Below are positions 11,512-24,289 of a stretch of 61,917 bases of DNA, piece after piece. Within the stretch, counting starts at the first letter, position 1. Each line of letters begins with the position of its first letter. A program made the translations under genes and the position numbers. Under the pieces are notes generated by a model. That model saw nothing but the letters and a program-made list of their open reading frames with translations, was not told the origin of the DNA and did not search any database. Origin of the DNA: Planctomycetota bacterium (GTDB lineage: Bacteria; Planctomycetota; Phycisphaerae; UBA1845). The stretch covers positions 1 to 61,917 of the forward strand of contig JAUWWQ010000023.1 in the NCBI GenBank assembly GCA_030616775.1. The letters are read 5' to 3'.

Positions 11512-12552
11512 ATGTCTGCATTGCGTGACGGTGATCGGATCAGCAACTATTTGCTCGAGGCGCGCCTCGGAGCCGGCAGCTTTGGCGAAGTGTGGCGCGC
11601 CCGACACCACGTGTTCGGCGACACAGTCGCAATCAAGGTCCCCACCGACCCGCAGTACGTGCGCAACCTGCAGCGGGAGGGTGTTGCAGTCCACGGTCTG
11701 CATCATCCCAACATCGTCCGGGCGATAGACCTGGATCCCTATGCCGACCCGCCGTATTTCGTAATGGAGTTTGTCGACGGGCCGTCACTCCGGAGCGTAA
11801 TCGACAAGCATGGGTCGACCATCCCCATCGGCGCGGCCGTTACCATCCTCCGGGGGATCTTGCAGGCACTGATCGCCTCGCATCGGACGGGACTGATACA
11901 TCGAGACCTGAAACCCGCGAACATTCTTCTGCATCAACCGCCCGAAGATCTCGCCGCAATCGCCGAGCAGGCTGTGAAGGTAACCGACTTCGGGCTGGGG
12001 CACGTGGGCGGCTCAACAACACAATCGATCATGCAGAGCGGCAGCGATCTGACCGAAGGCGGTCGGAGCATTGCCGGTACGCTCGCGTATATGTCGCCCG
12101 AGCAGAAGGAGGGCGGTGAGCTTGACGCCCGAAGTGATCTGTACGCGTGCGCGATCATTCTGTTTGAAATGCTGACCGGGGAGAGGCCCCAGGGCAGCGA
12201 TCTACCAACGTCGTTGCGCAGGGAGGTGCCGGCGCACCTGAGCGAGGTCTTTCGGCGCTCTTACACGCGGTGGGACCGGCGGTATGAGTCGGCCGCCGAA
12301 ATGCTGGCTGACCTGACGGCGCCGGACCATCCGCAGGCGGCAGTTCCCCCACGGCCTGCCGGCGCACAGGTCTACGGGCCGGGTTGTCCTGAGTGCGGCA
12401 AGCCGGTTCACAGCGATGATCAATTCTGCATCCACTGCGGCCACCAGTTGGTGGCAGCGGTTCCCAGGTGCGCGGCGTGTCAGGCCTTCGTCCATCAGAG
12501 TGATCGGTTCTGCATCTTTTGCGGCAACGACCTGCGGGTCCTGAATGAATGA
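11512..12552 (+). CDS. Ser/Thr protein kinase with two C-terminal zinc ribbons
   Basis: Soluble Hanks-type kinase. The G-loop is G-A-G-S-F-G-E-V (20-27), the catalytic Lys K42, the catalytic loop H-R-D-L-K-P-A-N (130-137) and DFG 159-161, all intact, so activity is expected. After the kinase domain (to about residue 272) come two CxxC...CxxC zinc ribbons: C292/C295/C306/C309 and C320/C323/C334/C337. There is no TM segment, unlike most planctomycete kinases. It is followed after 15 bases by a small TM plus zinc-ribbon protein and then by the coiled-coil/AAA cluster. Inference: it phosphorylates or recruits cluster members. Confidence 0.88.
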   Translation: MSALRDGDRISNYLLEARLGAGSFGEVWRARHHVFGDTVAIKVPTDPQYVRNLQREGVAVHGLHHPNIVRAIDLDPYADPPYFVMEFVDGPSLRSVIDKHGSTIPIGAAVTILRGILQALIASHRTGLIHRDLKPANILLHQPPEDLAAIAEQAVKVTDFGLGHVGGSTTQSIMQSGSDLTEGGRSIAGTLAYMSPEQKEGGELDARSDLYACAIILFEMLTGERPQGSDLPTSLRREVPAHLSEVFRRSYTRWDRRYESAAEMLADLTAPDHPQAAVPPRPAGAQVYGPGCPECGKPVHSDDQFCIHCGHQLVAAVPRCAACQAFVHQSDRFCIFCGNDLRVLNE

Positions 12553-12567: not shown

Positions 12568-12831
12568 ATGCACGGCGATGCTGTTCTGATTGTTTTACTT
12601 TTGGTGTTTGGATGTGTTGCCTTCCTCTTTGGTGTTATATATTTGCTCTGTCAGTCGTTCGCCTGGGTGGGGCGAGGTTTGCTGGGGATTTTCAGGCCGT
12701 GCAGACGGGCTGACGAAGCCGGGCCGCGGATGCCAGGCTTACGTCCGCGGGTGTGCCCGAACGAGCGATGCCGCAAAGTGGAATACCGCAAGGCCCGTTT
12801 CTGCTGCCAGTGCGGCACGTGTCTTCCGTAA
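12568..12831 (+). CDS. Small TM protein with C-terminal zinc ribbon
   Basis: 87 residues. One or two N-terminal TM helices (about residues 6-38) are followed by a Cys-rich tail with C-P-N-E-R-C and F-C-C-Q-C-G-T-C, matching a zinc ribbon. It starts 15 bases after the kinase gene and ends 28 bases before the first coiled-coil gene, so it is almost certainly in the same operon. The shared zinc-ribbon feature suggests contact with, or co-evolution with, the upstream kinase. The family was not recognised. Confidence 0.65.
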   Translation: MHGDAVLIVLLLVFGCVAFLFGVIYLLCQSFAWVGRGLLGIFRPCRRADEAGPRMPGLRPRVCPNERCRKVEYRKARFCCQCGTCLP

Positions 12832-12859: not shown

Positions 12860-14332
12860 ATGACGGTGGATGCCACGAAAGCTCTCCAGTATGAAACCGA
12901 CTTTCTGTCGGGCGTGGAGATCAACTTTGAGGCTGCCAAGGCCAAGTACTTCCGCGGTTCGATCTGGCAGCGGTCACAATCTGACGAGAGCGATCGTCTC
13001 CGGGCCCTGCTGGCCTCCAACCGGATCTATGATCGCGAAAGGCTGAAGTCGCTCCCGGCCAACCGCCGTATCGTGCTGCACGGGTTTGAACGGCGATTCA
13101 TATTAGGAAAGCGGCGAACGGGCATCGCCATCGCATCGGTTCTGTCACCGATGAGTCACTATGCCTCCTCGCCGGATTCGGAGGCACCGCCGATCGATCT
13201 CGGCGAGCTGGCCGACCACGTCAACAAGCTTGCCGGTGACAAGCGCGTGCCACATGTGATCGGGGTATGCAGTACGAGCGGGTTTACCGAGGCGGCACTG
13301 AACGCCCGGCTTGATATGCCCAACCTCACGGTGGTGCTGATTGAACCTGATGAATGTGGTGGGTGGCGTACCAAGGCCGCCAGCGACTCGGCCGATCCGC
13401 GGGTGCTCAAAATATTCGACCCCGAAGGAACGAACGAGAAAATAGACCGCGTTCGCCGCGTCATTGAGGAACACAGCGCAGACTTGTTGACCGGCGGCCT
13501 GTCGGCATCCTCGGTGGCGAAAAAAGTCGGCCTGCCGGAAGATGTAGTGCGGCTGGCGCTCGAGCGGACGGCGGCCGCTGACCCTGAACTGAGGCTGAGC
13601 AAGAAGGAGGGGGAATTTCTGCTGTTCCGCGGCGCTTCGGTGCAGCGTCAGGAGAGAAGAGCAATGAATGTCATCGACCGCATCAGGCAATTGTTCTCCG
13701 GCGAGGGCGACGAAGCCGAGAAGATCAATCTGCTCGCCGAACGCCGTGCCGCGCTGGCCCAACGCCGCGACCGGATCTACGAGGACATCGGCAAGCTGGA
13801 AAAGAAAGAGGCGGGACTGTTCGCGGAGGGTAAGGCGGCAACCTCCCAGGTTCCCAGACGGCGATTGGCCGCCCAGCTTGCCCAACTGCGGAAGGATATC
13901 GCCCGGCAGAACGCAACGGCTGCGATGCTGAACAAGCAGATCGATATCATCAGCACCGACATCCACAACCTGACGCTGATCCAGCAGGGCGAAAGGGCTC
14001 AGCTACCCGATACCGCCGAGCTGACCGAAAACGCCGTCCGGGCCGAAGAGATGCTCGAGACCCTAAGAGCCGACTCTGAACTGGTGGGCAGTCTCGAAAC
14101 AGGCATCGAAGAGTCGCTCACCAGTGACGAAGAGCTGGCGATTCTGCATGAGTTCGAGGCGGAAGCGGAACCGACGCCGGCCACACCGGTGACCACCGAG
14201 CCGGCCAAGACGCCACCCATCGCGGAGACCGAAAAGGCCGAGCCATCCGTTCCCGCCGAGTCCACTGCTGATGAGCCGCCCGCACCAGCGCCGGAGTCCC
14301 AGGACCGCCGCGCCGACGCCGAGCCTATGTGA
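12860..14332 (+). CDS. Multidomain coiled-coil protein with ESCRT-III-like core (paralogue 1)
   Basis: 490 residues in four parts. (a) Residues 1-205: an alpha/beta region with a possible Rossmann-like strand order around H-V-I-G-V-C-S-T-S (132-140) and L-T-V-V-L-I-E-P (156-163). (b) Residues 207-257: a probable winged helix (S-A-S-S-V-A-K-K-V-G-L). (c) Residues 268-432: long basic-then-acidic helices resembling ESCRT-III; residues 312-343 align with the next gene's product through K-L-x-K-x3-G-L-F-x2-G and R-R-x2-A. (d) A Pro/Glu-rich disordered tail. The winged helix fused to an ESCRT-III-like core recalls CHMP7 and ESCRT-II/III hybrids, but this is by analogy only. No catalytic motif is seen. 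Confidence 0.6.
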   Translation: MTVDATKALQYETDFLSGVEINFEAAKAKYFRGSIWQRSQSDESDRLRALLASNRIYDRERLKSLPANRRIVLHGFERRFILGKRRTGIAIASVLSPMSHYASSPDSEAPPIDLGELADHVNKLAGDKRVPHVIGVCSTSGFTEAALNARLDMPNLTVVLIEPDECGGWRTKAASDSADPRVLKIFDPEGTNEKIDRVRRVIEEHSADLLTGGLSASSVAKKVGLPEDVVRLALERTAAADPELRLSKKEGEFLLFRGASVQRQERRAMNVIDRIRQLFSGEGDEAEKINLLAERRAALAQRRDRIYEDIGKLEKKEAGLFAEGKAATSQVPRRRLAAQLAQLRKDIARQNATAAMLNKQIDIISTDIHNLTLIQQGERAQLPDTAELTENAVRAEEMLETLRADSELVGSLETGIEESLTSDEELAILHEFEAEAEPTPATPVTTEPAKTPPIAETEKAEPSVPAESTADEPPAPAPESQDRRADAEPM

Positions 14333-14403: not shown

Positions 14404-15009
14404 ATGGCGTTCTTTGAGTGGTTAACCAAGCGGAAGAAACGCCTGTCACAGATGACCCGTGCGGAGCTGCGCCGGCAGGAGCTGCTTTTGGAGAAGGATC
14501 GTAAACAACTTCTCAACAAGATCACCAAGCTGGCCAAGGACAAGCAGGGGCTGTTTGAACGCGGCGCCGAAGAGAAGACCCCTGAATTGAGGCGTATGTT
14601 CGCCCAGGAGTTCGAGCTGCGGACCACCGAGCAGCTTATGCTCAGTCGGCAGCTCAACATCCGCAGCAAAGAGGCTATGACCGTCTCGCGGATTCGCATG
14701 CTGCGGGAGAACGCCGACCGGGCCGGTCAGTCCGGCAAGCTCGGGCTAGTCAGCGAGGTGGATATCCTTCGACTGGGCGGCTTGATCGAGTCAGATGCGG
14801 TCAAGGCCGAGGTCTATCAGGAGCGGCTCGACGAGATTCTGTCGGTCGGGGCGAGCGTCGATGAAGGTGCTGCATTGCTAAGCGAGGCCGGGGAGAGCGT
14901 GGTCAAAGTCTGGGAGAAGATGGATGCCGGGGCGATCACCGACGCGACCGAAGCGTTCGATGAGGCCGACCGCTCGGTGCGCGAAAGACACGCTATGCCG
15001 GAAGGATAG
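14404..15009 (+). CDS. ESCRT-III/Snf7-like coiled-coil protein (paralogue 2)
   Basis: 201 residues, all helical. The N-terminus is short, aromatic and basic (M-A-F-F-E-W-L-T-K-R-K-K-R), as in CHMP proteins. A long helix (20-45) is followed by K-L-A-K-D-K-Q-G-L-F-E-R-G (42-54) and R-R-M-F-A-Q-E-F-E-L-R (63-73). This pattern matches the alpha1-alpha2 hairpin of CHMP2, where a basic helix is followed by a Gly-containing turn, Ala-rich helix and R-x-R. The second half is acidic. The same signature appears in residues 312-343 of the upstream protein. PspA/Vipp1 also belong to this superfamily, but the length and the K-Q-G turn look closer to Snf7. Expected role: membrane-bound filament subunit. 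Not proven. Confidence 0.6.
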   Translation: MAFFEWLTKRKKRLSQMTRAELRRQELLLEKDRKQLLNKITKLAKDKQGLFERGAEEKTPELRRMFAQEFELRTTEQLMLSRQLNIRSKEAMTVSRIRMLRENADRAGQSGKLGLVSEVDILRLGGLIESDAVKAEVYQERLDEILSVGASVDEGAALLSEAGESVVKVWEKMDAGAITDATEAFDEADRSVRERHAMPEG

Positions 15010-15355: not shown

Positions 15356-15964
15356 ATGGCTTTGTTCAAGTCTTCCGAGGAACGTCGCATCGAACGGGAT
15401 ATCAAGATTCGCCAGGGGGTCAGGCGGATCGAGAAGGCCATACGCGAGCAGGGGAAGTTCCAGGACGAGTTCATCAAGAATGCTCAGCACGCCAAGAAGA
15501 TCGGTGACAACGCCCAGTACACATTCATTCGTAACTCGCTCAAAAAAACTGCCACCATTCGGAAGATGCTCGAACGGCAACTGCTCTCGGTCAAGAACGC
15601 ATTACTGATCAAGCGACAAGCGGAGGCATCGACCGATTTTGCCAAGAGCATGGGCATCATGGCCGCCGAGATTGGGCGGCTGTTCGGCGAGACCGACCTG
15701 ATGAAGACCCAGGCGGACTGGGAAAAGGCCATGGTGCAGTCGCAGACTATGGAAGAGCGCATGGAGATGTTCCTCGATACTATCGAGGACGTGGCCGCCC
15801 AGGATGCGGAGATGAGCGCAGCCGGCGAGGTGGTCGGCGATCAGGAGATCGACCGGCTGATCGAGACGGAGGCTGAGGCCGAGCATCAGAAGGAGCTCGA
15901 CAAACTGGCCGGTCTGCGGGCGGAGTTGGATTCACTCAAAGCCCAGGGGGAGAAACAGAAGTAG
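15356..15964 (+). CDS. ESCRT-III/Snf7-like protein with MIM1-like C-terminus (paralogue 3)
   Basis: 202 residues, all helical, basic N-terminal half (1-90) and acidic C-terminal half. Residues 92-147 (F-A-K-S-M-G-I-M, then W-E-K-A-M-V-Q-S-Q-T-M, then M-F-L-D-T-I-E-D) resemble the CHMP2 segment with Met-rich helices followed by an E-x2-M-x5-I-x-D/E-like helix. The last helix carries L184-x2-L187-x2-E190-L191-x2-L194-K195. This keeps the Leu spacing and terminal Lys of the MIM1 motif (D/E-x2-L-x2-R-L-x2-L-K/R), which binds MIT domains of Vps4, but lacks its acidic first residue and Arg. A MIT-AAA gene lies downstream. Expected role: filament subunit recruited or disassembled by that ATPase. Confidence 0.65.
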   Translation: MALFKSSEERRIERDIKIRQGVRRIEKAIREQGKFQDEFIKNAQHAKKIGDNAQYTFIRNSLKKTATIRKMLERQLLSVKNALLIKRQAEASTDFAKSMGIMAAEIGRLFGETDLMKTQADWEKAMVQSQTMEERMEMFLDTIEDVAAQDAEMSAAGEVVGDQEIDRLIETEAEAEHQKELDKLAGLRAELDSLKAQGEKQK

Positions 15965-16148: not shown

Positions 16149-16478
16149 ATGGAGCTTGGCATGGTTGCCATGGATCAGGTTGAAGCTTTGAGTCGACAAA
16201 TCGTGCGCGAGTTTGAGCCCGAACGGATCATCCTGTTCGGATCACACGCCTACGGAACGCCCTCCGAGTATTCCGACGTTGATGTTCTCGTGATTATGCC
16301 GTTCGAGGGCCACCCGTTCGACAAAGCCATGGAGATTCTGGATCGGTTGGACCCGGATTTTTCCGCAGATGTCGTCGTCCGCAGCCCGGGGGACGCGGCC
16401 CGAAGATACGCCGAGTGCGACCCCCTGATCCGCGAAGCGTTCGATCGCGGGAAGGTTCTTTATGAACGGAACGGTTAG
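16149..16478 (+). CDS. MNT-type nucleotidyltransferase (HEPN partner)
   Basis: 109-residue minimal nucleotidyltransferase (COG1708-like). The active-site pattern is G-S-H-A-Y-G-T-P-S-E-Y-S-D-V-D-V-L-V (residues 36-53), with the two metal-binding Asp of the S-D-x-D motif. In characterised MNT-HEPN pairs the MNT protein acts as antitoxin, in some cases by adenylylating the HEPN protein. The gene overlaps the HEPN gene by 17 bases. The pair is flanked on both sides by REP-like palindromes and interrupts the spacing between the ESCRT-III-like gene and the Vps4-like gene. Confidence 0.85.
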   Translation: MELGMVAMDQVEALSRQIVREFEPERIILFGSHAYGTPSEYSDVDVLVIMPFEGHPFDKAMEILDRLDPDFSADVVVRSPGDAARRYAECDPLIREAFDRGKVLYERNG

Positions 16479-16845
16479 GGAGTGGTTCGACAAGGCCGAG
16501 GGTGACTACGGGGTCGCCGAACGCGAACTGCACGCCGGGGAGCGCCCGAACTACGACGCGGTCTGCTACCACGCCCAACAATGCGTCGAAAAGCTGATGA
16601 AGGCCGTGCTGGTACATCGTGGCGTGGTGCCTCCCAAAGTGCACGACCTGTCTCACCTGGCCAAACTCTTGAAGGACGCGTGTCCATCGTGGGATTGGAG
16701 CAAAAAGGACCTTAGGTGGCTGACGCGGGCCGGGATGGCGTTCAGGTATCCCGGTGGATCGGCCACATGCGAGCACGCCAGAAAGTCCTTGGCGGTTTGC
16801 ACGGAATTGCGCGAGTCGTTGTTGAAGCTTGTTGGGAGTGAATGA
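16462..16845 (+). CDS. HEPN-domain protein (COG2250-like)
   Basis: 127 residues. The four-helix HEPN fold is indicated by Y-D-A-V-C-Y-H-A-Q-Q-C-V-E-K-L-M-K-A (31-48), then V-H-D-L-S-H-L-A-K-L-L and the late F-R-Y-P motif followed by A-x2-A-R-K-S. The R-x4-6-H RNase motif of toxic HEPN proteins is not visible here, so this member may be a non-RNase type that regulates or protects rather than cuts RNA. It overlaps the MNT gene, forming a classic two-gene module. Confidence 0.82.
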   Translation: MNGTVREWFDKAEGDYGVAERELHAGERPNYDAVCYHAQQCVEKLMKAVLVHRGVVPPKVHDLSHLAKLLKDACPSWDWSKKDLRWLTRAGMAFRYPGGSATCEHARKSLAVCTELRESLLKLVGSE

Positions 16846-16910: not shown

Positions 16911-18041
16911 ATGGCTGTTTCGTTTGGGATATTTGAGCGGTTAAAGGGTAAAGGGGTCGCTGCGTATAAGAAGGGCGACTACCTGACGGCCAAGACGTAT
17001 CTGGTCGATGCGGCTGAGTGCATGGTTGACATGGCTGAAACCGCCAAGACGCCCGAAGCGAAGCGGCAGCATGAAGAGCTGGCGGCCGAATTGATCGATC
17101 TGGCCAAGGACAGCGACCGGATGCACAGGTCCGGCGGTAAAGGACGTCGCCCGGGTGTTGCCCGCCAGCGCGAAAGGGAGGGCGATTCCGGGGCGGATGT
17201 CGCGGACTGGATCGTCAAGGACAAACCGACCATCGGCTTCGACGACATCGCCGGCCTGGACGACGTAAAGGAAGATATCCGCCTGAAGATGATCTACCCC
17301 TTCGCCCACCCGGAGCTGGCCCGGCAATACGGGATCAGCACCGGCGGCGGCGTGCTGCTCTACGGCGCGCCGGGTACGGGCAAAACAATGATCGCCAAGG
17401 CCATCGCCCACGAGATCGAGGCGACGTTTTTTGTTGTCAGCCCGGCCCAAATGCTCAGCAAATGGGTCGGTGAGGCCGAGCAGAACATCCGCAAGCTTTT
17501 CGAGGCCGCCAAGTCGGAGCCTACCTCGGTGATTTTCCTGGACGAGATCGAAGCCCTGGTGCCCAAGCGGAAAAGCGACAGCTCCACCGTCATGCAGCGG
17601 GTGGTGCCGCAAATCCTGCAGGAACTGGAGGGATTTGATCGGACGGGCGACCGGGCACTACTATTTGTAGGGGCGACGAACAAGCCGTGGATGCTCGATG
17701 AGGCGATACTTCGGCCCGGGCGGCTCGACGCCAGGATATACGTCGGCCTGCCCGACGCACCGGCGCGATTTCGCCTGTTGGAGATTTACTTTGGCGGCAG
17801 GCCGCTGGCGGAGGACGTAGATTTCGGTGAGTTGTGCGACCGGTTGGATCGTTACAGCGGTGCCGACATCAAGAATATTGCCCATCGGGCGGCACAATTA
17901 CCGTTTATGGAGGCGATCGCCGGGAAAGACGCCAGGCCGATCTCGCGGCAGGACATCATGACCGTCGTTGAGGCGACACGCCCATCGGTCAATCCGGCGG
18001 ACTTGATCCGATACGAGAAGTTCACGGAAGGCAGGAAGTAA
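16911..18041 (+). CDS. Vps4-like AAA ATPase with N-terminal MIT-like domain
   Basis: 376 residues. Residues 5-72 fit a three-helix MIT domain: G-V-A-A-Y-K-K-G-D-Y-L-T-A-K-T-Y at 15-30, then an Ala-rich helix and a third helix ending L-A-K-D-S-D-R. The AAA domain follows: Walker A G-A-P-G-T-G-K-T (152-159), pore loop 1 S-K-W-V-G-E (183-188, the aromatic that threads ESCRT-III in Vps4), Walker B V-I-F-L-D-E (207-212), sensor N257, R-P-G-R-L-D (268-273) near the arginine-finger position. The C-terminus P-S-V-N-P-A-D-L-I-R-Y-E-K-F matches the terminal helix of the Vps4/katanin/p97 group. Expected role: remodelling of ESCRT-III-like filaments. The Vps4 beta-hairpin insertion seems to be missing, so MIT-bearing katanin/spastin relatives are alternatives. 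Confidence 0.85.
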   Translation: MAVSFGIFERLKGKGVAAYKKGDYLTAKTYLVDAAECMVDMAETAKTPEAKRQHEELAAELIDLAKDSDRMHRSGGKGRRPGVARQREREGDSGADVADWIVKDKPTIGFDDIAGLDDVKEDIRLKMIYPFAHPELARQYGISTGGGVLLYGAPGTGKTMIAKAIAHEIEATFFVVSPAQMLSKWVGEAEQNIRKLFEAAKSEPTSVIFLDEIEALVPKRKSDSSTVMQRVVPQILQELEGFDRTGDRALLFVGATNKPWMLDEAILRPGRLDARIYVGLPDAPARFRLLEIYFGGRPLAEDVDFGELCDRLDRYSGADIKNIAHRAAQLPFMEAIAGKDARPISRQDIMTVVEATRPSVNPADLIRYEKFTEGRK

Positions 18042-18159: not shown

Positions 18160-19926
18160 ATGGCTGGCAGTAAGTTTGATCCTCAGCTTTTTTTCCAGCG
18201 TCCTGATAACGTGGCCCTGCACGTTCCCGCGTCCGAGCTGTTCGGTATCCTGAAGAGGTCGTTGGATTTGCCTTCGCAGTGGGCCGCGATGGTCAGGCGG
18301 ACCACAGGCGATCACGTCGTCGTACAGGCCGGTGGACAGGTAAGCGGTACGGACGTCGAGGACGTGCTCTTTGTCAGAACTACGCCTGTCGAGGTGGTGC
18401 TCGAAGAGGAAGGCATCGTCACGGGTGACCGGTATCAGTGCCGTGCGGAGCTTCGGCTACGGATTAGCGTCATTCCCGAACGCAGCGAGTTGCTGTCCTT
18501 TCAAAGCGTGGTGCTCGGGAGCCATCGCGTTGTGCAGGCGGCCGGTATTGCCCGCTATCTTCAACCGGCGCTCCGGGCCGCCCTGGCGCAGTTCGCCGCC
18601 CAGCGCGAAGCGGCCGAAATTGTCGATGCCCGTTCGACGGAGCCGATATCCGCCGCGATGGCCGAAGCCCTCAAGGCACCCTGTTTCGCTGCCGGGCTGG
18701 TTGTAGACGGTCGGCCGTCGGCAAAGTTCGACTCCAAGACGCTTCGACAGGTTCAGGACGCTGAGCAGGAGGCCGTTCGCCGCCACGCGGAGCACAAGGC
18801 GGCCCGAGAGCTTCAAGAGGCGTTGGAGCGGGCCCAGGCTCGGCACCTCGATCATCTGGCATCGCTGTTTACTCGACTCAAGGATCTGGCCGACGCCTCA
18901 CCCGACGTTGAGTTGCCGGAGCTGATCCGTGCGTTCTCGGAGCAGCAGCGAGGCGAGTTGTACGAAGCACTCTTTGAGTCTGAGCCGGTAACCGCACAGA
19001 CGCAGTGGCTGGTCGTCGGGGCTGGTGATGAGTTGATGTTCTTCGCCCCATCAAGTCTCGATTCGCCGAGTCGTCGCTTCCGCGTGGAGGGTGAGGCCGG
19101 TCCCGTGCGATCAATTCACGTAGCCAAATCCGCTGACGGCAGTGTGACATTGCTTCTCGGCGCCGCCACCGGAGTCTACCGGCTTCCGATTGATCGGGTC
19201 GAGCCGGATATGACGCTCCTTGTAAGCGGTTTGCCGTCGGCGCGCGGCGGGTTCAATGCGGTGGCAATGGTGGGCGATCGCGTGTTCGCTTCGCACTCCG
19301 AGCTTGGTTTATGCGAATGGGACATCAATGACCCGGCGTCGTCGCGATCAAGATTTGAATCGATCACCCGCGGGGCGAAGGCGGTGCGCGGAGTTCAGTT
19401 CTTCGATGGGGATCTGTACTGCGCCATTGACGACCGGGTGATTCGCTGGGCGGCGGACCAGAGCACGGAGCGCCCCACACATATTTATACCGGCAGCATG
19501 ACCACGATCACCGCACTGTGTCCCACGTCGGATGGCCTGTTCGTGGGCAACGGTGAGGGCGACGTTCTGCACTGGCCTACCAGCCGCGATCGCAAGCCCG
19601 ATCGCCTGCACACAGGCTTGCATCGCCCCGCGGAATCCGTGTGGCTGCTGTCCACGCACGGGGTGCGGCGCCTGGTGTATACCGACACGTCGCTACACGT
19701 CCACGCGCGCGTGCTCGGTGACAACTTCGAGTGTCGTTACGAAGCCGGTGGGCAGACGCTTCGCCGGGTCGAGGTCGCACCTGACATGCTGGTGGGCACC
19801 AACGACCTGCGAGACCGCCTGATCTGCTGGAGTCCGGGTCAGCCCAAGCAGCCTACCGCAACACTCGCCGTCTCGCGCCTCTGCGGCCACAGCATCCAGG
19901 ACGTCTGCCTCGTGCCGCAGGTGTAA
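18160..19926 (+). CDS. SPFH/band-7-like domain fused to a beta-propeller
   Basis: 588 residues, no signal peptide or clear TM segment. Residues 15-185 read like an SPFH/band-7 domain: D-V-L-F-V-R-T-T-P-V-E-V (68-79), a strand-rich block R-A-E-L-R-L-R-I-S-V-I-P, then a helix R-Y-L-Q-P-A-L-R-A-A-L and a final strand F-A-A-G-L-V-V-D-G. A charged coiled coil follows (190-245), as in flotillins. The C-terminal 300 residues are repeated strands with W-D-I/W-x-A/H-W-P motifs, consistent with a WD40-like propeller. SPFH proteins organise membrane microdomains and often partner with PspA-type proteins. It lies 118 bases after the Vps4-like gene. The domain call is by eye. Confidence 0.6.
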   Translation: MAGSKFDPQLFFQRPDNVALHVPASELFGILKRSLDLPSQWAAMVRRTTGDHVVVQAGGQVSGTDVEDVLFVRTTPVEVVLEEEGIVTGDRYQCRAELRLRISVIPERSELLSFQSVVLGSHRVVQAAGIARYLQPALRAALAQFAAQREAAEIVDARSTEPISAAMAEALKAPCFAAGLVVDGRPSAKFDSKTLRQVQDAEQEAVRRHAEHKAARELQEALERAQARHLDHLASLFTRLKDLADASPDVELPELIRAFSEQQRGELYEALFESEPVTAQTQWLVVGAGDELMFFAPSSLDSPSRRFRVEGEAGPVRSIHVAKSADGSVTLLLGAATGVYRLPIDRVEPDMTLLVSGLPSARGGFNAVAMVGDRVFASHSELGLCEWDINDPASSRSRFESITRGAKAVRGVQFFDGDLYCAIDDRVIRWAADQSTERPTHIYTGSMTTITALCPTSDGLFVGNGEGDVLHWPTSRDRKPDRLHTGLHRPAESVWLLSTHGVRRLVYTDTSLHVHARVLGDNFECRYEAGGQTLRRVEVAPDMLVGTNDLRDRLICWSPGQPKQPTATLAVSRLCGHSIQDVCLVPQV

Positions 19927-20350: not shown

Positions 20351-21286
20351 ATGCCGCTCATGTGGCGGCGAGGATGGTTAACCCGGCGGCTGGCGGCGCA
20401 CACCCTGTACGTGGCCATTTTCTTCTCGCCAATACTGGCAGCCCTGGCCGAGGTTCGGACGAAGAGCATCGAGCTCGGTGACGACACCGTAGCCGAGCGC
20501 ATTATCACCATTGCGCCGAATTCGGCGGAGATCATTTGTGGGCTGGGGGCGTGTGATCGAATTGTCGGCGTGAGCAAGTTTTGCGTTTACCCGCCCAAGC
20601 TGCAGCAGCGACCGCGAGTCGGCGGGCTGTTCGATTCCGACCTGGAAAGGATCATCGCCCTGCGGCCGGACCTTGTCGTTCTGCGCGGGCGGAACGATTC
20701 GGTGGAGCAGCTCTGCCGGCGGCGCAACATCGCTGTTTATCACGACCGGACTGAGACCCTCCGCGACGTTGAGACGTGCATCACCGACCTCGGGCAGCGC
20801 CTGGGGCGGGTCGACGAAGCAGCCAAGCTGCTGGAGCAGTTTCACCGTCGTCTGGATGCCGTTAGAAAACGGACCGCAAACCGGCCGCGACCGCGCGTAC
20901 TTCTGACGGTATCGCGCCAGCCCGACCGGCTGGCTAATGTGCTGACCGCCGGTAAGGGGACGTTTCTCGATGAGATGCTTAAGATCGCCGGTGGGACTAA
21001 CGTGTTCGGGCACCTGGACATGGCTTACCCTCAGATCAGCGTTGAAGCGATCATCGCCCGACGGCCCGACGTGATTATCGAGCTGATCCCGGAAGTGAAG
21101 TTGACGCCGGCGCTTACGCAGCAGATGCTCGGCCAATGGAAAAAGGTCGGTTCGATCCCGGCGGTTACCGACGGGCGAGTCTTCTTCGTCACCGACGATC
21201 ATTGTCTGATACCGTCGCCTCGGTACGTGGATATCATCGAGAAGGTGTCACGGTTGTTACACCCGGAGGCCGACGGTGATCCGTGA
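20351..21286 (+). CDS. Periplasmic substrate-binding protein, BtuF/FepB class
   Basis: 311 residues. It has a signal sequence (residues 1-34) with a Thr/Arg-rich start and hydrophobic core, and a class III binding-protein fold: I-I-T-I-A-P-N-S-A-E-I-I near the N-terminus, R-P-D-L-V-V-L in the first lobe and a long connecting helix. The repeated pattern R-R-P-D-V-I-I-E-L marks the second lobe. It overlaps the ATPase gene by 11 bases. Cobalamin (BtuF) is the likeliest ligand, iron-siderophore or haem the alternative; sequence alone does not decide. Confidence 0.85.
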   Translation: MPLMWRRGWLTRRLAAHTLYVAIFFSPILAALAEVRTKSIELGDDTVAERIITIAPNSAEIICGLGACDRIVGVSKFCVYPPKLQQRPRVGGLFDSDLERIIALRPDLVVLRGRNDSVEQLCRRRNIAVYHDRTETLRDVETCITDLGQRLGRVDEAAKLLEQFHRRLDAVRKRTANRPRPRVLLTVSRQPDRLANVLTAGKGTFLDEMLKIAGGTNVFGHLDMAYPQISVEAIIARRPDVIIELIPEVKLTPALTQQMLGQWKKVGSIPAVTDGRVFFVTDDHCLIPSPRYVDIIEKVSRLLHPEADGDP

Positions 21287-22094
21287 AACGACTCCGATGC
21301 TGGGCCTCGAAGAAGTGCGGTTCGGGTTTGCCGCCCGCCCGAGTTTTCTCGGCCCCATCACGTTCTGTGTTGACCGCGGCGAGTGCTGGGCGATCGTCGG
21401 GCCTAACGGAGCGGGCAAAAGCACGTTGTTGCGTCTGATGGCCGGTCTGTACAAGCCGCACGCCGGAAAGATCAGCCTCGGTGGCGCGGCGCTGGACGAA
21501 ATGCCCGGTCGCCACCGCGCCCGGCGCATGGCATTCCTGCCACAGAATCCGCCTACCCATCTTGATCTGTCCGTGCGAGACATGGTCCTGATGGGTCGGT
21601 TTCCGCATCGCTCGCTGGGGCTGTTCGACTCCGCGGAGGACTACCGGATCGCGGATCGGGTTATGGCGGTCACAGAGACGCTCGGTTTTGCCGATCGTCC
21701 CATGGCCACACTGTCAGGAGGTGAGGCCCAACGTGTCCACGTAGCCGCCGCCCTTGCCCAGGAACCGCGAATTGTGCTCCTCGACGAGCCTACCGCTTCG
21801 CTGGATATTCAACACCAACTGGCCATCTTTCAAATCCTTCGCAACCGGGCAAGTTCCGACGGGCTGGCAGTGGTCGTCGTGACTCATGACGTCAACCTGG
21901 CGGCCCAGTTCTGTTCCCACGTCTTGCTGCTTCATGAAGGGCACGGTGTGACTACGGGTCCACCGGCCGAGGTTTTAACGCCGGAGGTGCTTGGCCCGGT
22001 GTACGGTGTCGAGTTAATGACACTTGCGATTCCGTTCCAACAAGACCGCTGCTGGGTGGTGCCCGTTGCGGCGACGCGGGAGGAGCCTGTATGA
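21276..22094 (+). CDS. ABC transporter ATPase, BtuD/FepC class
   Basis: 272 residues. Walker A G-P-N-G-A-G-K-S, Q-loop F-L-P-Q-N, ABC signature L-S-G-G-E-A-Q-R, Walker B I-V-L-L-D-E-P-T and switch region V-V-T-H-D are all intact. The H-D-V-N-L-A-A-Q ending is typical of the FecE/BtuD family. It overlaps the binding-protein gene by 11 bases and the permease gene by 4 bases, so the three are one operon for vitamin B12 or ferric-chelate import across the inner membrane. No cobalamin riboswitch was recognised upstream. Confidence 0.9.
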   Translation: MIRETTPMLGLEEVRFGFAARPSFLGPITFCVDRGECWAIVGPNGAGKSTLLRLMAGLYKPHAGKISLGGAALDEMPGRHRARRMAFLPQNPPTHLDLSVRDMVLMGRFPHRSLGLFDSAEDYRIADRVMAVTETLGFADRPMATLSGGEAQRVHVAAALAQEPRIVLLDEPTASLDIQHQLAIFQILRNRASSDGLAVVVVTHDVNLAAQFCSHVLLLHEGHGVTTGPPAEVLTPEVLGPVYGVELMTLAIPFQQDRCWVVPVAATREEPV

Positions 22095-23221
22095 CGATGC
22101 TCACACCCCGTCGGTACGTCCTGCGGCTTGGCGGCTGTGTGCTGGGTCTTATGTTACTCATTTTGATAAGCCCGGGGATTGGCACAGAGTCTGCCTCGTT
22201 TGGATGGTGGGATGCCTGGCGAGCACAACTCGGGCTCTCGATCGATGCAGATGAGCTGATCGGACGTCCGTTCGTTGATTTGGACGAGGACGGCACGATC
22301 TCCAACGATGAGCTGGCCGGATTCGTCGATGTGGCCCGGCAGATCGGTTTCCGTCAGCGCTTTCCACGGACACTCCTGGCGTTGCAGGTGGGGATCACAC
22401 TGGCCTTGTGCGGGGCAACCTTTCAGGTGCTGTTCAGGAACCCGCTGGCTACGCCCTACACGCTTGGAATCGCCAGCGGCGGCTCGCTCGGTGCGCTGGT
22501 CGCCATCCGACTCGGATGGGGAATTACGCTGTTGGGCATATCGAGCCTGGCAATGTCTGCGTTTGTGGGCGGGGTCGCGGTTGTCGGGATCGTATTGTTG
22601 CTGGCCCGTGGAGCCCGGCGGTTGACCTCCAACGAACTCCTGCTTGCCGGGGTGACGATGGGGCTGTTCTGCTCCGCAATGATGATGCTTGTTACGGCCG
22701 TGTCGAGCGAACGGGCAACGTTCACGATGGTGCGCTGGATGATGGGTTCCCTGGATCCAATCACGACCCTCCAAGGTGCGATGCTACTACCGCTCGTGGT
22801 GCCTTCTTGGGTGGTGCTGATGGTCAGCGCTCGGGCGTTAAACCAATACCGCCTCGGTGATGAGCTGGCCACCTCCCGAGGGGTTAATGTGGTCAATCTG
22901 CAGGGAATCTGCGTGCTGGTCTGCACATTGGCGACGGCGGGCGTGGTGGCGAAGTGCGGTCCGATCGGGTTCGTTGGGCTGGTCGTGCCTCACATGGTTG
23001 CTTTGGTGATGGGCTCTGACTGTCGGCTGCTGCTTCCCACTTCGGCGGTTGTTGGCGGGGCCTTTCTGATCGTCTGTGATTGGGGTTCGCAGCTTACCAT
23101 GCGTTTTGCAGGTTGGGCTACCGACCGGCAGATTGGCAGCGCGACCCTGCCGATCGGGGTCGTAACCGCAGTTGTAGGGGTGCCTGTCTTTTTGATCTTG
23201 CTGAAAGCACGGCGGAAGTGA
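22091..23221 (+). CDS. BtuC/FecCD-type ABC permease with an EF-hand loop
   Basis: 376 residues; the FecCD family signature is clear (R-F-P-R-T-L-L-A-L then L-C-G-A-T-F-Q-V-L-F-R-N-P-L-A-T-P). About nine TM helices are visible. Between TM1 (residues 12-30) and TM2 there is an added extracytoplasmic stretch with a textbook Ca-binding EF-hand loop, D63-L-D65-E-D67-G-T-I70-S-N-D-E74. Such a loop is not part of standard BtuC or FecCD proteins, which go from TM1 straight to the R-x-P-R motif after about 30 residues. It may make transport depend on calcium or stabilise the periplasmic face. Start ATG at 22091 overlaps the upstream gene. Confidence 0.88.
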   Translation: MTMLTPRRYVLRLGGCVLGLMLLILISPGIGTESASFGWWDAWRAQLGLSIDADELIGRPFVDLDEDGTISNDELAGFVDVARQIGFRQRFPRTLLALQVGITLALCGATFQVLFRNPLATPYTLGIASGGSLGALVAIRLGWGITLLGISSLAMSAFVGGVAVVGIVLLLARGARRLTSNELLLAGVTMGLFCSAMMMLVTAVSSERATFTMVRWMMGSLDPITTLQGAMLLPLVVPSWVVLMVSARALNQYRLGDELATSRGVNVVNLQGICVLVCTLATAGVVAKCGPIGFVGLVVPHMVALVMGSDCRLLLPTSAVVGGAFLIVCDWGSQLTMRFAGWATDRQIGSATLPIGVVTAVVGVPVFLILLKARRK

Positions 23222-23410: not shown

Positions 23411-24289
23411 ATGAGAGCCCGAGCGACGTTTGTGTGCCTGGTTCTGGCAGGTCTGGGGTTGCTCCCGAGCACCGGCTGCATCGTCATTGGTGTAGATTGG
23501 GACTGGCCGTTTGGCGGCTCGAGAGTATGGACCGAGCCGGTGACCGAGCGGATTCAGATCGACGCCGCCGACCTCGAGGGCTTGGAGACGCGTACACACA
23601 ACGGCTCGATCACGTTCAATGGTCAGCCGATGGGGACGGCTGAAGCCTATGTCACGGTCACCAAGAAGGCCGGTGGGCTGACGATGGCTGACGCCGAAGC
23701 GGCACTCGAAGCAATCGACGTGTACGTCAAGCCAGCAGGCAACAATATTCAGCGCATCGGTTGGAAATGGAAAGGCATTAAGCGATCGAACTGGGGAGCC
23801 CGAGTCAGCTTCGATATCAAGGCACCAGGTAACATTCGATTCGATGGACAGACACATAATGGCCCGATCGAGATCAGCGGTGTCGCCGGCGATGTCCGGG
23901 TGGTCACCCACAACGGTGGGGTCAAGGTCGATTCGGCCGGTGGAAAGCTCCACGCTGAAACCCATAACGGGTCGGTCACAGCCACGTACGCCGGTGACGA
24001 CATCACGCTCGTTACCCACAATGGCCGCGTGACCGCGGACCTCAGCCGGTGCGGCGCGATGAGTGGCCGCATCACGACGCACAACGGTAGCATCGAGGTC
24101 GTCGTCGGTGAGGCGGCATCGGTTAATCTGACCTGCCGGACTCATAACGGGGCCATCAGGTGCAACGTTCCGTTGAACGAAAGCCTGTTCTCGCGACGTA
24201 AGCTCACGGGAACAATCGGGACCGGCGAAGGTAATCTCGACGTGATTACGCATAATGGCAGCGTCAACATCAAGAAAGCTTCCGGTTGA
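23411..24289 (+). CDS. DUF4097 (Toastrack-like) lipoprotein with T-H-N-G repeats
   Basis: 292 residues with a lipoprotein signal (L-L-P-S-T-G-C, lipid Cys C23). The mature part is a chain of short strands carrying eight T-H-N-G motifs (for example T-R-T-H-N-G-S-I and V-V-T-H-N-G-G-V) spaced every 15-25 residues, consistent with a right-handed beta-helix of the DUF4097/Toastrack class. Toastrack domains are found in LiaX-like and Psp-linked envelope-stress proteins. The gene follows the uptake operon after 189 bases and ends at a clear terminator. It is not in the ESCRT-like cluster but lies 3.5 kb away on the same strand, so a functional link is only suggestive. Confidence 0.75.
   Translation: MRARATFVCLVLAGLGLLPSTGCIVIGVDWDWPFGGSRVWTEPVTERIQIDAADLEGLETRTHNGSITFNGQPMGTAEAYVTVTKKAGGLTMADAEAALEAIDVYVKPAGNNIQRIGWKWKGIKRSNWGARVSFDIKAPGNIRFDGQTHNGPIEISGVAGDVRVVTHNGGVKVDSAGGKLHAETHNGSVTATYAGDDITLVTHNGRVTADLSRCGAMSGRITTHNGSIEVVVGEAASVNLTCRTHNGAIRCNVPLNESLFSRRKLTGTIGTGEGNLDVITHNGSVNIKKASG

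Follow-up and report, generated by a model that had tools for sequence, protein, structure and literature searches.

The window analysed here, a 61,917-nucleotide stretch of DNA from a Planctomycetota bacterium (Phycisphaerae; UBA1845; assembly GCA_030616775.1, contig JAUWWQ010000023.1, positions 1-61,917, forward strand), contains a gene cluster that very probably encodes a bacterial ESCRT-type membrane-remodelling machine, as judged by sequence comparison and structure prediction. Within it, a gene encoding a Vps4-like ATPase (H) lies directly behind three genes encoding ESCRT-III-like proteins (C, D and E), a context on which the earlier note, concerned with the ATPase, had not remarked. 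The conserved operon, which combines three ESCRT-III relatives and an MIT-type ATPase with winged-helix, kinase and SPFH components, would extend the pairing of ESCRT-III with Vps4 to bacteria, and it bears on the origin of ESCRT and of planctomycete membrane complexity. The genes follow one another in the order A, B, C, D, E, H, I, with the following features:

11512..12552, + strand: A, Ser/Thr protein kinase that also has a double zinc ribbon; the cluster starts with this gene (Pfam)
12568..12831, + strand: B, small protein of 87 aa with, by eye, a hydrophobic N-terminus and CxxC pairs (position kept)
12860..14332, + strand: C, 490-aa fusion of an archaeal arCOG09748-like winged-helix protein with an ESCRT-III-like coil
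13118..13639, + strand: C residues 87-260, central and winged-helix region in common with an archaeal ESCRT-locus protein (hhalign)
13649..14179, + strand: C residues 264-440, ESCRT-III-like coil (hhalign)
14404..15009, + strand: D, ESCRT-III relative, 201 aa (planctomycete-only profile, hhalign, alignment A8)
15356..15964, + strand: E, ESCRT-III (Snf7/CHMP) relative, 202 aa (AlphaFold2, Foldseek, Pfam Snf7, PDB profile)
15905..15940, + strand: E residues 184-195, conserved C-terminal helix, predicted MIM1-like MIT-binding tail
16911..18041, + strand: H, Vps4-like single-AAA ATPase, 376 aa (ORF check, Pfam, AlphaFold2, tree, NCBIfam)
16923..17129, + strand: H residues 5-73, N-terminal domain of three helices, MIT-like (AlphaFold2, hhalign, PDB profile matches)
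17202..17930, + strand: H residues 98-340, the AAA module, containing the Walker A/B and RPGR motifs (Pfam, motif alignment)
17457..17474, + strand: H residues 183-188, aromatic pore loop SKWVGE (alignment)
17934..18029, + strand: H residues 342-373, Vps4_C-type C-terminal region (PF09336)
18160..19926, + strand: I, SPFH/Band-7-like protein, 588 aa, with, by eye, a coiled coil and a propeller-like C-terminus

The ATPase H and its N-terminal domain

The open reading frame of H begins with an ATG at 16911 and its stop ends at 18041 on the + strand, as the earlier note had it. Pfam AAA matches the protein at E 7e-40, and Walker A (GAPGTGKT, residues 152-159), Walker B (VIFLDE, 207-212) and sensor (ATN, 255-257) motifs are present. 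An SKWVGE pore loop and a Vps4-typical C-terminal helix had also been claimed for H, and both were found: the loop occupies residues 183-188, where G187 is invariant and S183, K184 and V186 are nearly so (alignment A2), and Vps4_C (PF09336) matches above its cut-off (E 3e-7; 30.7 bits, cut-off 21.3), with the helix TRPSVNPADLIRYEKF at residues 356-371. The beta-domain insertion of eukaryotic Vps4 is, by sequence, absent from H, which has 376 aa compared with 437-444. The best NCBIfam model for H is CdvC (NF041006), which spans residues 15-373 and is the only top match extending through the N-domain; its score of 224 bits lies below the equivalog cut-off of 650.

The N-terminal domain of H is likely an MIT domain. 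AlphaFold2, using a 52-sequence alignment, predicted helices at residues 5-20, 24-43 and 48-73 with a pLDDT of ~90, followed by a low-confidence linker and the AAA fold. When compared by hhalign with a set of Vps4 and CdvC MIT domains, this domain aligned over its whole length (probability 52, E 1.5e-4, 61 collinear columns), and the controls, the TPR of bacterial TPR-AAA proteins and reversed MIT, reached 0.9 and 3.1, respectively. In profile-profile comparisons, the N-domain of a paralogue, H', scored 94-96 with that of H and 92 with the archaeal domain. A wider profile of the H N-domain matched PDB entries 2mpk, 1wr0, 2jqh and 8uc6; nearly full-length matches include chitin synthase 1 (1.4e-3) and VPS4B (0.2-0.6), and partial-length matches were to calpain-7 (0.07) and many TPR proteins. 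Chitin synthase 1 and calpain-7, like VPS4B, contain MIT domains. The Pfam MIT model matched no member of the H family, in which single TPR repeats (TPR_2) were preferred. Because this model also misses the Vps4s of Desulfurococcales (L059/L060 type) and of haloarchaeal loci, while finding CdvC of the Caldarchaeal type, it cannot decide on the N-domain of H. A Foldseek search with the whole H model was swamped by p97 and has no bearing on MIT. The three-helix MIT pattern that the earlier note had read in the first ~70 residues is supported by the prediction of three confident helices that are MIT-like by profile comparison, and not by a Pfam MIT match.

To place H, a tree of AAA domains was built from 62 sequences, among them H, Vps4, CdvC, spastin, bacterial TPR-AAA and Cdc48 proteins, with FtsH as an outgroup (the host genome encodes FtsH separately, on contig C5) and with katanin and PAN left out. 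The Vps4s, spastin, H and the bacterial TPR-AAA proteins form one group from which Cdc48 is excluded at 100/96, placing H, which has a single AAA domain and no M41 peptidase, outside Cdc48 in this PAN-free tree. The H orthologues form their own Planctomycetota clade (100/97), which adjoins the bacterial TPR-AAA proteins and two haloarchaeal proteins (96/93) and in the best tree lies outside the Vps4, CdvC and spastin clades; spastin pairs with eukaryotic Vps4 (98/96), and H is located elsewhere. H' and a Chloroflexota plasmid protein were placed with Desulfurococcales and haloarchaeal Vps4 (100/97). With long branches removed, grouping H and all Vps4s in one clade was not rejected (AU p 0.152). 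At residues 268-273, H keeps RPGRLD, where Vps4 and CdvC have an SRF/RRF-type motif. Membership of the Vps4/katanin group, as the earlier note had proposed for H, was not supported by the best tree, which was built without katanin. Because of its tree position, the AU result and RPGRLD, we describe H as Vps4-like, with descent from within Vps4/katanin one possibility. The contrary outcome envisaged in that note, a purely bacterial AAA clade combined with an N-terminal fold unrelated to MIT, was seen at most in its first half, the N-domain being MIT-like.

ESCRT-III relatives in the cluster

On profile matches and a predicted structure, E is a distant Snf7/CHMP homologue. Its AlphaFold2 model (pLDDT 74) has helices at residues 7-49, 52-110, 115-153 and 162-201, arranged as a long hairpin plus two more helices, and ranks 1-6 of a Foldseek search of the PDB are all ESCRT-III proteins (CdvB, CHMP2A, CHMP3 and a Loki CHMP), with weak E-values of 0.02-0.2 and with BAR-type hairpins ranking next. 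Snf7 is the Pfam family matched by most E-family members (14 of 23 diverse sequences; best 2.7e-6). The host's own E copy has no Pfam Snf7 match, Pfam Snf7 has 0 matches across the host genome, and Pfam returned nothing useful for the host copies of C, D and E or for the MIT domain. At E <=10, the E-family profile matched five PDB sequences, all of them CHMP3 or CHMP2A (best 0.028). Because comparison of E with archaeal CdvB by hhalign was negative (D and E both reached a probability of only 0.1-0.3), the assignment of E rests on the Snf7/CHMP matches and on topology. Behind a variable linker, the C-terminal helix of E, LAGLRAELDSLK, has L187, R188, E190 and K195 invariant in 30 sequences; it follows the pattern LxxLRxELxxLK, with Glu at the canonical MIM1 Arg position. 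Strong conservation of this kind would fit an MIT-binding tail, and the helix is predicted from sequence to be a MIM1-like, putative tail of that type.

By sequence comparison, D and the C-terminal coil region of C are, like E, ESCRT-III relatives. All archaeal matches of D and C were obtained with planctomycete-only profiles, which were used because iterated HMMs drifted. Among 1702 ORFs, the D profile picks the one that immediately precedes vps4 in each of four archaeal loci (L059-L062; E-values 2e-8, 3e-7, 3e-5 and 1.4e-4), and hhalign aligned D with the archaeal ESCRT-III encoded beside vps4 over 173 columns (probability 70). D has no Pfam Snf7 match, reaches a probability of 0.1 with Snf7-positive CdvB directly and only 13 with E, and against the PDB it returned only noise. 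The C profile finds a second ORF in three of the same archaeal loci (1.8e-6, 0.003 and 0.008), and residues 87-260 of C align with the archaeal ESCRT-locus protein at a probability of 97 (E 2e-10, 171 columns); the family name arCOG09748 was given to C by analogy with PMC10936438. The coil of C aligns with D at a probability of 92 and with Snf7-positive archaeal CdvB at 50 (E 1.7e-4, 150 columns), and coiled-coil controls stayed below 4 in the hhalign comparisons of C, D and E. Taken one by one, the homology scores are modest, as the host E copy without a Snf7 match and the D/E-CdvB and D-E values illustrate.

H most likely functions in the manner of Vps4 and remodels ESCRT-III filaments at a membrane. 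C, D and E would polymerise on the inner face of the membrane, where the winged-helix part of C may nucleate or recruit. The MIT-like domain of H would dock on ESCRT-III C-terminal helices, for which residues 184-195 of E are the best candidate; H would form a hexamer and pull subunits through its pore via W185, and ATP hydrolysis by H would exchange or dismantle the filament, leading to constriction, scission or repair. Kinase A may tune assembly, and the SPFH protein I may scaffold a membrane domain.

Alternatively, H could be a bacterial unfoldase of TPR-AAA type, similar to Vps4 or Cdc48, with unrelated coiled-coil proteins for neighbours and no ESCRT function. We consider this quite unlikely: although H joins the bacterial TPR-AAA proteins in the tree and shares RPGRLD with them and with Cdc48, TPR-AAA N-termini are unlike that of H (probability 0.9) and those proteins are without the Vps4-type C-terminal helix, and a single clade of H and the Vps4s was not rejected. 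The first two MIT helices are TPR-like, Pfam favours TPR_2, and bacterial Vps4-like AAAs with snf7 displaced are on record (PMC11237479); however, the ESCRT-III pairs in the planctomycete locus score 50-92, far from the coiled-coil controls, and the PDB matches of the E profile are CHMPs only.

The coil genes could also encode PspA/Vipp1-type envelope-stress proteins that form a phage-shock system with an AAA partner, since PspA is a member of the ESCRT-III superfamily (PMC8281802) and is found with AAA+ and Band-7 partners (PMC11237479). This appears very improbable, as a planctomycete PspA profile reached hhalign probabilities of <=0.3 against the ESCRT-III-like coil of C and against D and E, Pfam returned Snf7 rather than PspA for the E family, and none of the 24 genomes searched in the host's family had a PspA_IM30 match above the cut-off.

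Conservation of the locus and its possible roles

An H orthologue is present in ~49 of 60 related genomes (Phycisphaerae and other Planctomycetota), single-contig MAG chromosomes among them; in one relative (G052) a further match is a different AAA protein, not an orthologue. Because the locus is kept in relatives and on single-contig chromosomes, chance or contamination as its source was ruled out. Across 292 phylum-wide genomes, ~25 outside the host's order have full or partial H orthologues (44-54% identity), and the orthologue is missing from most, including nearly all genomes from the other orders of the same class.

Gene order is conserved as well. Where at least 7 kb lies upstream, the order kinase-C-D-E-H was found in 26 of 35 Phycisphaerae loci; the remaining 9 genomes all have D at another place, next to C and/or E wherever the surrounding sequence is visible. 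Some loci are limited by partial genes and contig ends. Kinase A (Pfam Pkinase 2e-38, DZR 4e-9) is the first gene in all 26 syntenic loci, B belongs to no Pfam family, and the SPFH-type gene I, whose product matches Pfam Band_7 slightly under the cut-off (E 9e-5; 23.0 bits, cut-off 23.6), is next downstream of H in 38 of 42 loci. The same gene set occurs in other planctomycete classes, often with the second Vps4 paralogue H', which sits between D and E in loci L140, L141, L143, L144, L145 and L151 and lies nearer than H to archaeal Vps4. Four loci of one family (L092-L095; genomes G084, G153, G123 and G106) encode weakly D-like proteins, with E-values of 3e-8 to 3e-14, and no C, E or H gene was seen alongside. 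In the window, the cluster is followed at 20351-23221 by three consecutive genes that by eye resemble BtuF-BtuD-BtuC cobalamin/iron uptake, and at 23411-24289 by a gene whose 292-aa product contains many THNGxI/V repeats and by eye resembles Toastrack/DUF4097 beta-repeat proteins, a type that has been linked to PspA partners (PMC11237479).

A nucleotidyltransferase (MNT)/HEPN gene pair lies between E and H (16149-16845). Because it occurs in few loci (~7-8), the pair has the look of a mobile element of toxin-antitoxin type inserted into the cluster. With a kinase, an AAA protein and this pair together, and with PADLOC matches of H to IetA (7e-37) and of the kinase to PD-T4-6 (1e-58), the locus might be read as a phage-defence or conflict module, a scarcely credible reading given that both PADLOC matches are generic, that the locus is broadly kept among relatives rather than sporadic and that most loci are without MNT/HEPN. 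No phage relatives of note were found for the locus. The PspA and defence readings were both rejected on the hhalign comparisons, the PspA search and the generic nature of the PADLOC matches.

FtsZ was undetected in the host genome and in 59 of the 60 genomes of the related set; the sole FtsZ/tubulin match (G019:C475:4569-4706) is in a MAG that is 63% complete, and is possibly contamination. Phycisphaerae and Brocadiales are described as dividing in a manner like binary fission without FtsZ, with the driver an open question (PMC6952346), for which the operon provides candidate genes. The failure to detect FtsZ and this description make a role in division an attractive and testable possibility. 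A simple replacement of FtsZ by ESCRT was rejected, as 287 of the 292 Planctomycetota genomes sampled gave no FtsZ match while H is found only in a minority; most sampled genomes from other orders of the same class have neither the H ATPase nor FtsZ. Because these H-less genomes are also without FtsZ, and because the combination of kinase and SPFH resembles archaeal loci that have been interpreted as sorting systems, we assert ESCRT-type remodelling alone. As to the cellular task of the locus, we regard membrane repair, vesiculation or sorting as an even prospect, and cytokinesis in FtsZ-less cells as conceivable and rather doubtful. The broader proposal, that FtsZ-less Phycisphaerae with the locus use it as their chief machine for cytokinetic scission, as a bacterial counterpart of Cdv acquired from or shared with archaea, is a tentative one that we do not favour.

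Comparison with known systems

According to a published survey, the pairing of vps4 with ESCRT-III is limited to archaea and eukaryotes, and in the full-text literature (preprints outside its scope, few subscription papers within it) we found no earlier description of a planctomycete ESCRT system. An ESCRT-III gene neighbourhood serves as the second criterion for Vps4 in PMC10936438, and ESCRT-III relatives adjoin H. Transfers of Vps4-like proteins to bacteria have been reported (PMC11237479), and these share with the planctomycete locus a Vps4-like AAA in a bacterium; in them an unrelated TPR/6TM gene displaces snf7, whereas the planctomycete locus keeps ESCRT-III relatives. A second, smaller bacterial ESCRT-like locus was found in Chloroflexota, on plasmid NZ_CP128401.1 of Candidatus Chlorohelix allophototropha (L104:1-4655), where genes for two coil proteins, one of them D-like (E 3e-7), stand in a row with those for a Vps4-type ATPase and a WD40 kinase.

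Compared with human CHMP2A/CHMP3 and VPS4B, the E profile matches CHMPs only, and the MIT-like domain and C-terminal helix of H resemble VPS4B; unlike VPS4B, H is without the Vps4 beta-domain and the RRF motif, and the sequence similarity is very remote. The Cdv system of TACK archaea (CdvA, CdvB, CdvC) likewise combines an MIT-AAA ATPase with ESCRT-III, and CdvC is the best NCBIfam model of H. The planctomycete system differs in that H scores 224 against the 650-bit equivalog cut-off and in the best tree falls outside the CdvC clade, and in that no CdvA was noticed, without a dedicated search.

In archaea, ESCRT systems that include genes for kinases, winged-helix proteins and SPFH proteins have been described, and loci with kinase and SPFH genes have been read as sorting systems (PMC10936438). 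The Meth_adaptin systems of that study resemble the planctomycete locus in having an SPFH-family gene and are set apart, by their descriptions, by adaptin-like genes, none of which were recognised in the planctomycete locus. The Desulfurococcales loci L059-L062 resemble the 'Main' systems of the same study, with vps4, ESCRT-III, an arCOG09748 winged-helix protein and a kinase. Unlike them, the planctomycete locus has a bacterial host, the winged-helix-coil fusion C, the extra protein E, an SPFH-type gene downstream, no recognised arCOG08177-like gene and an ATPase on a separate branch. In both, however, a Vps4-type ATPase is encoded directly behind a D-family ESCRT-III gene, with a homologous winged-helix protein encoded upstream and, as in L060 and L061, kinases nearby.
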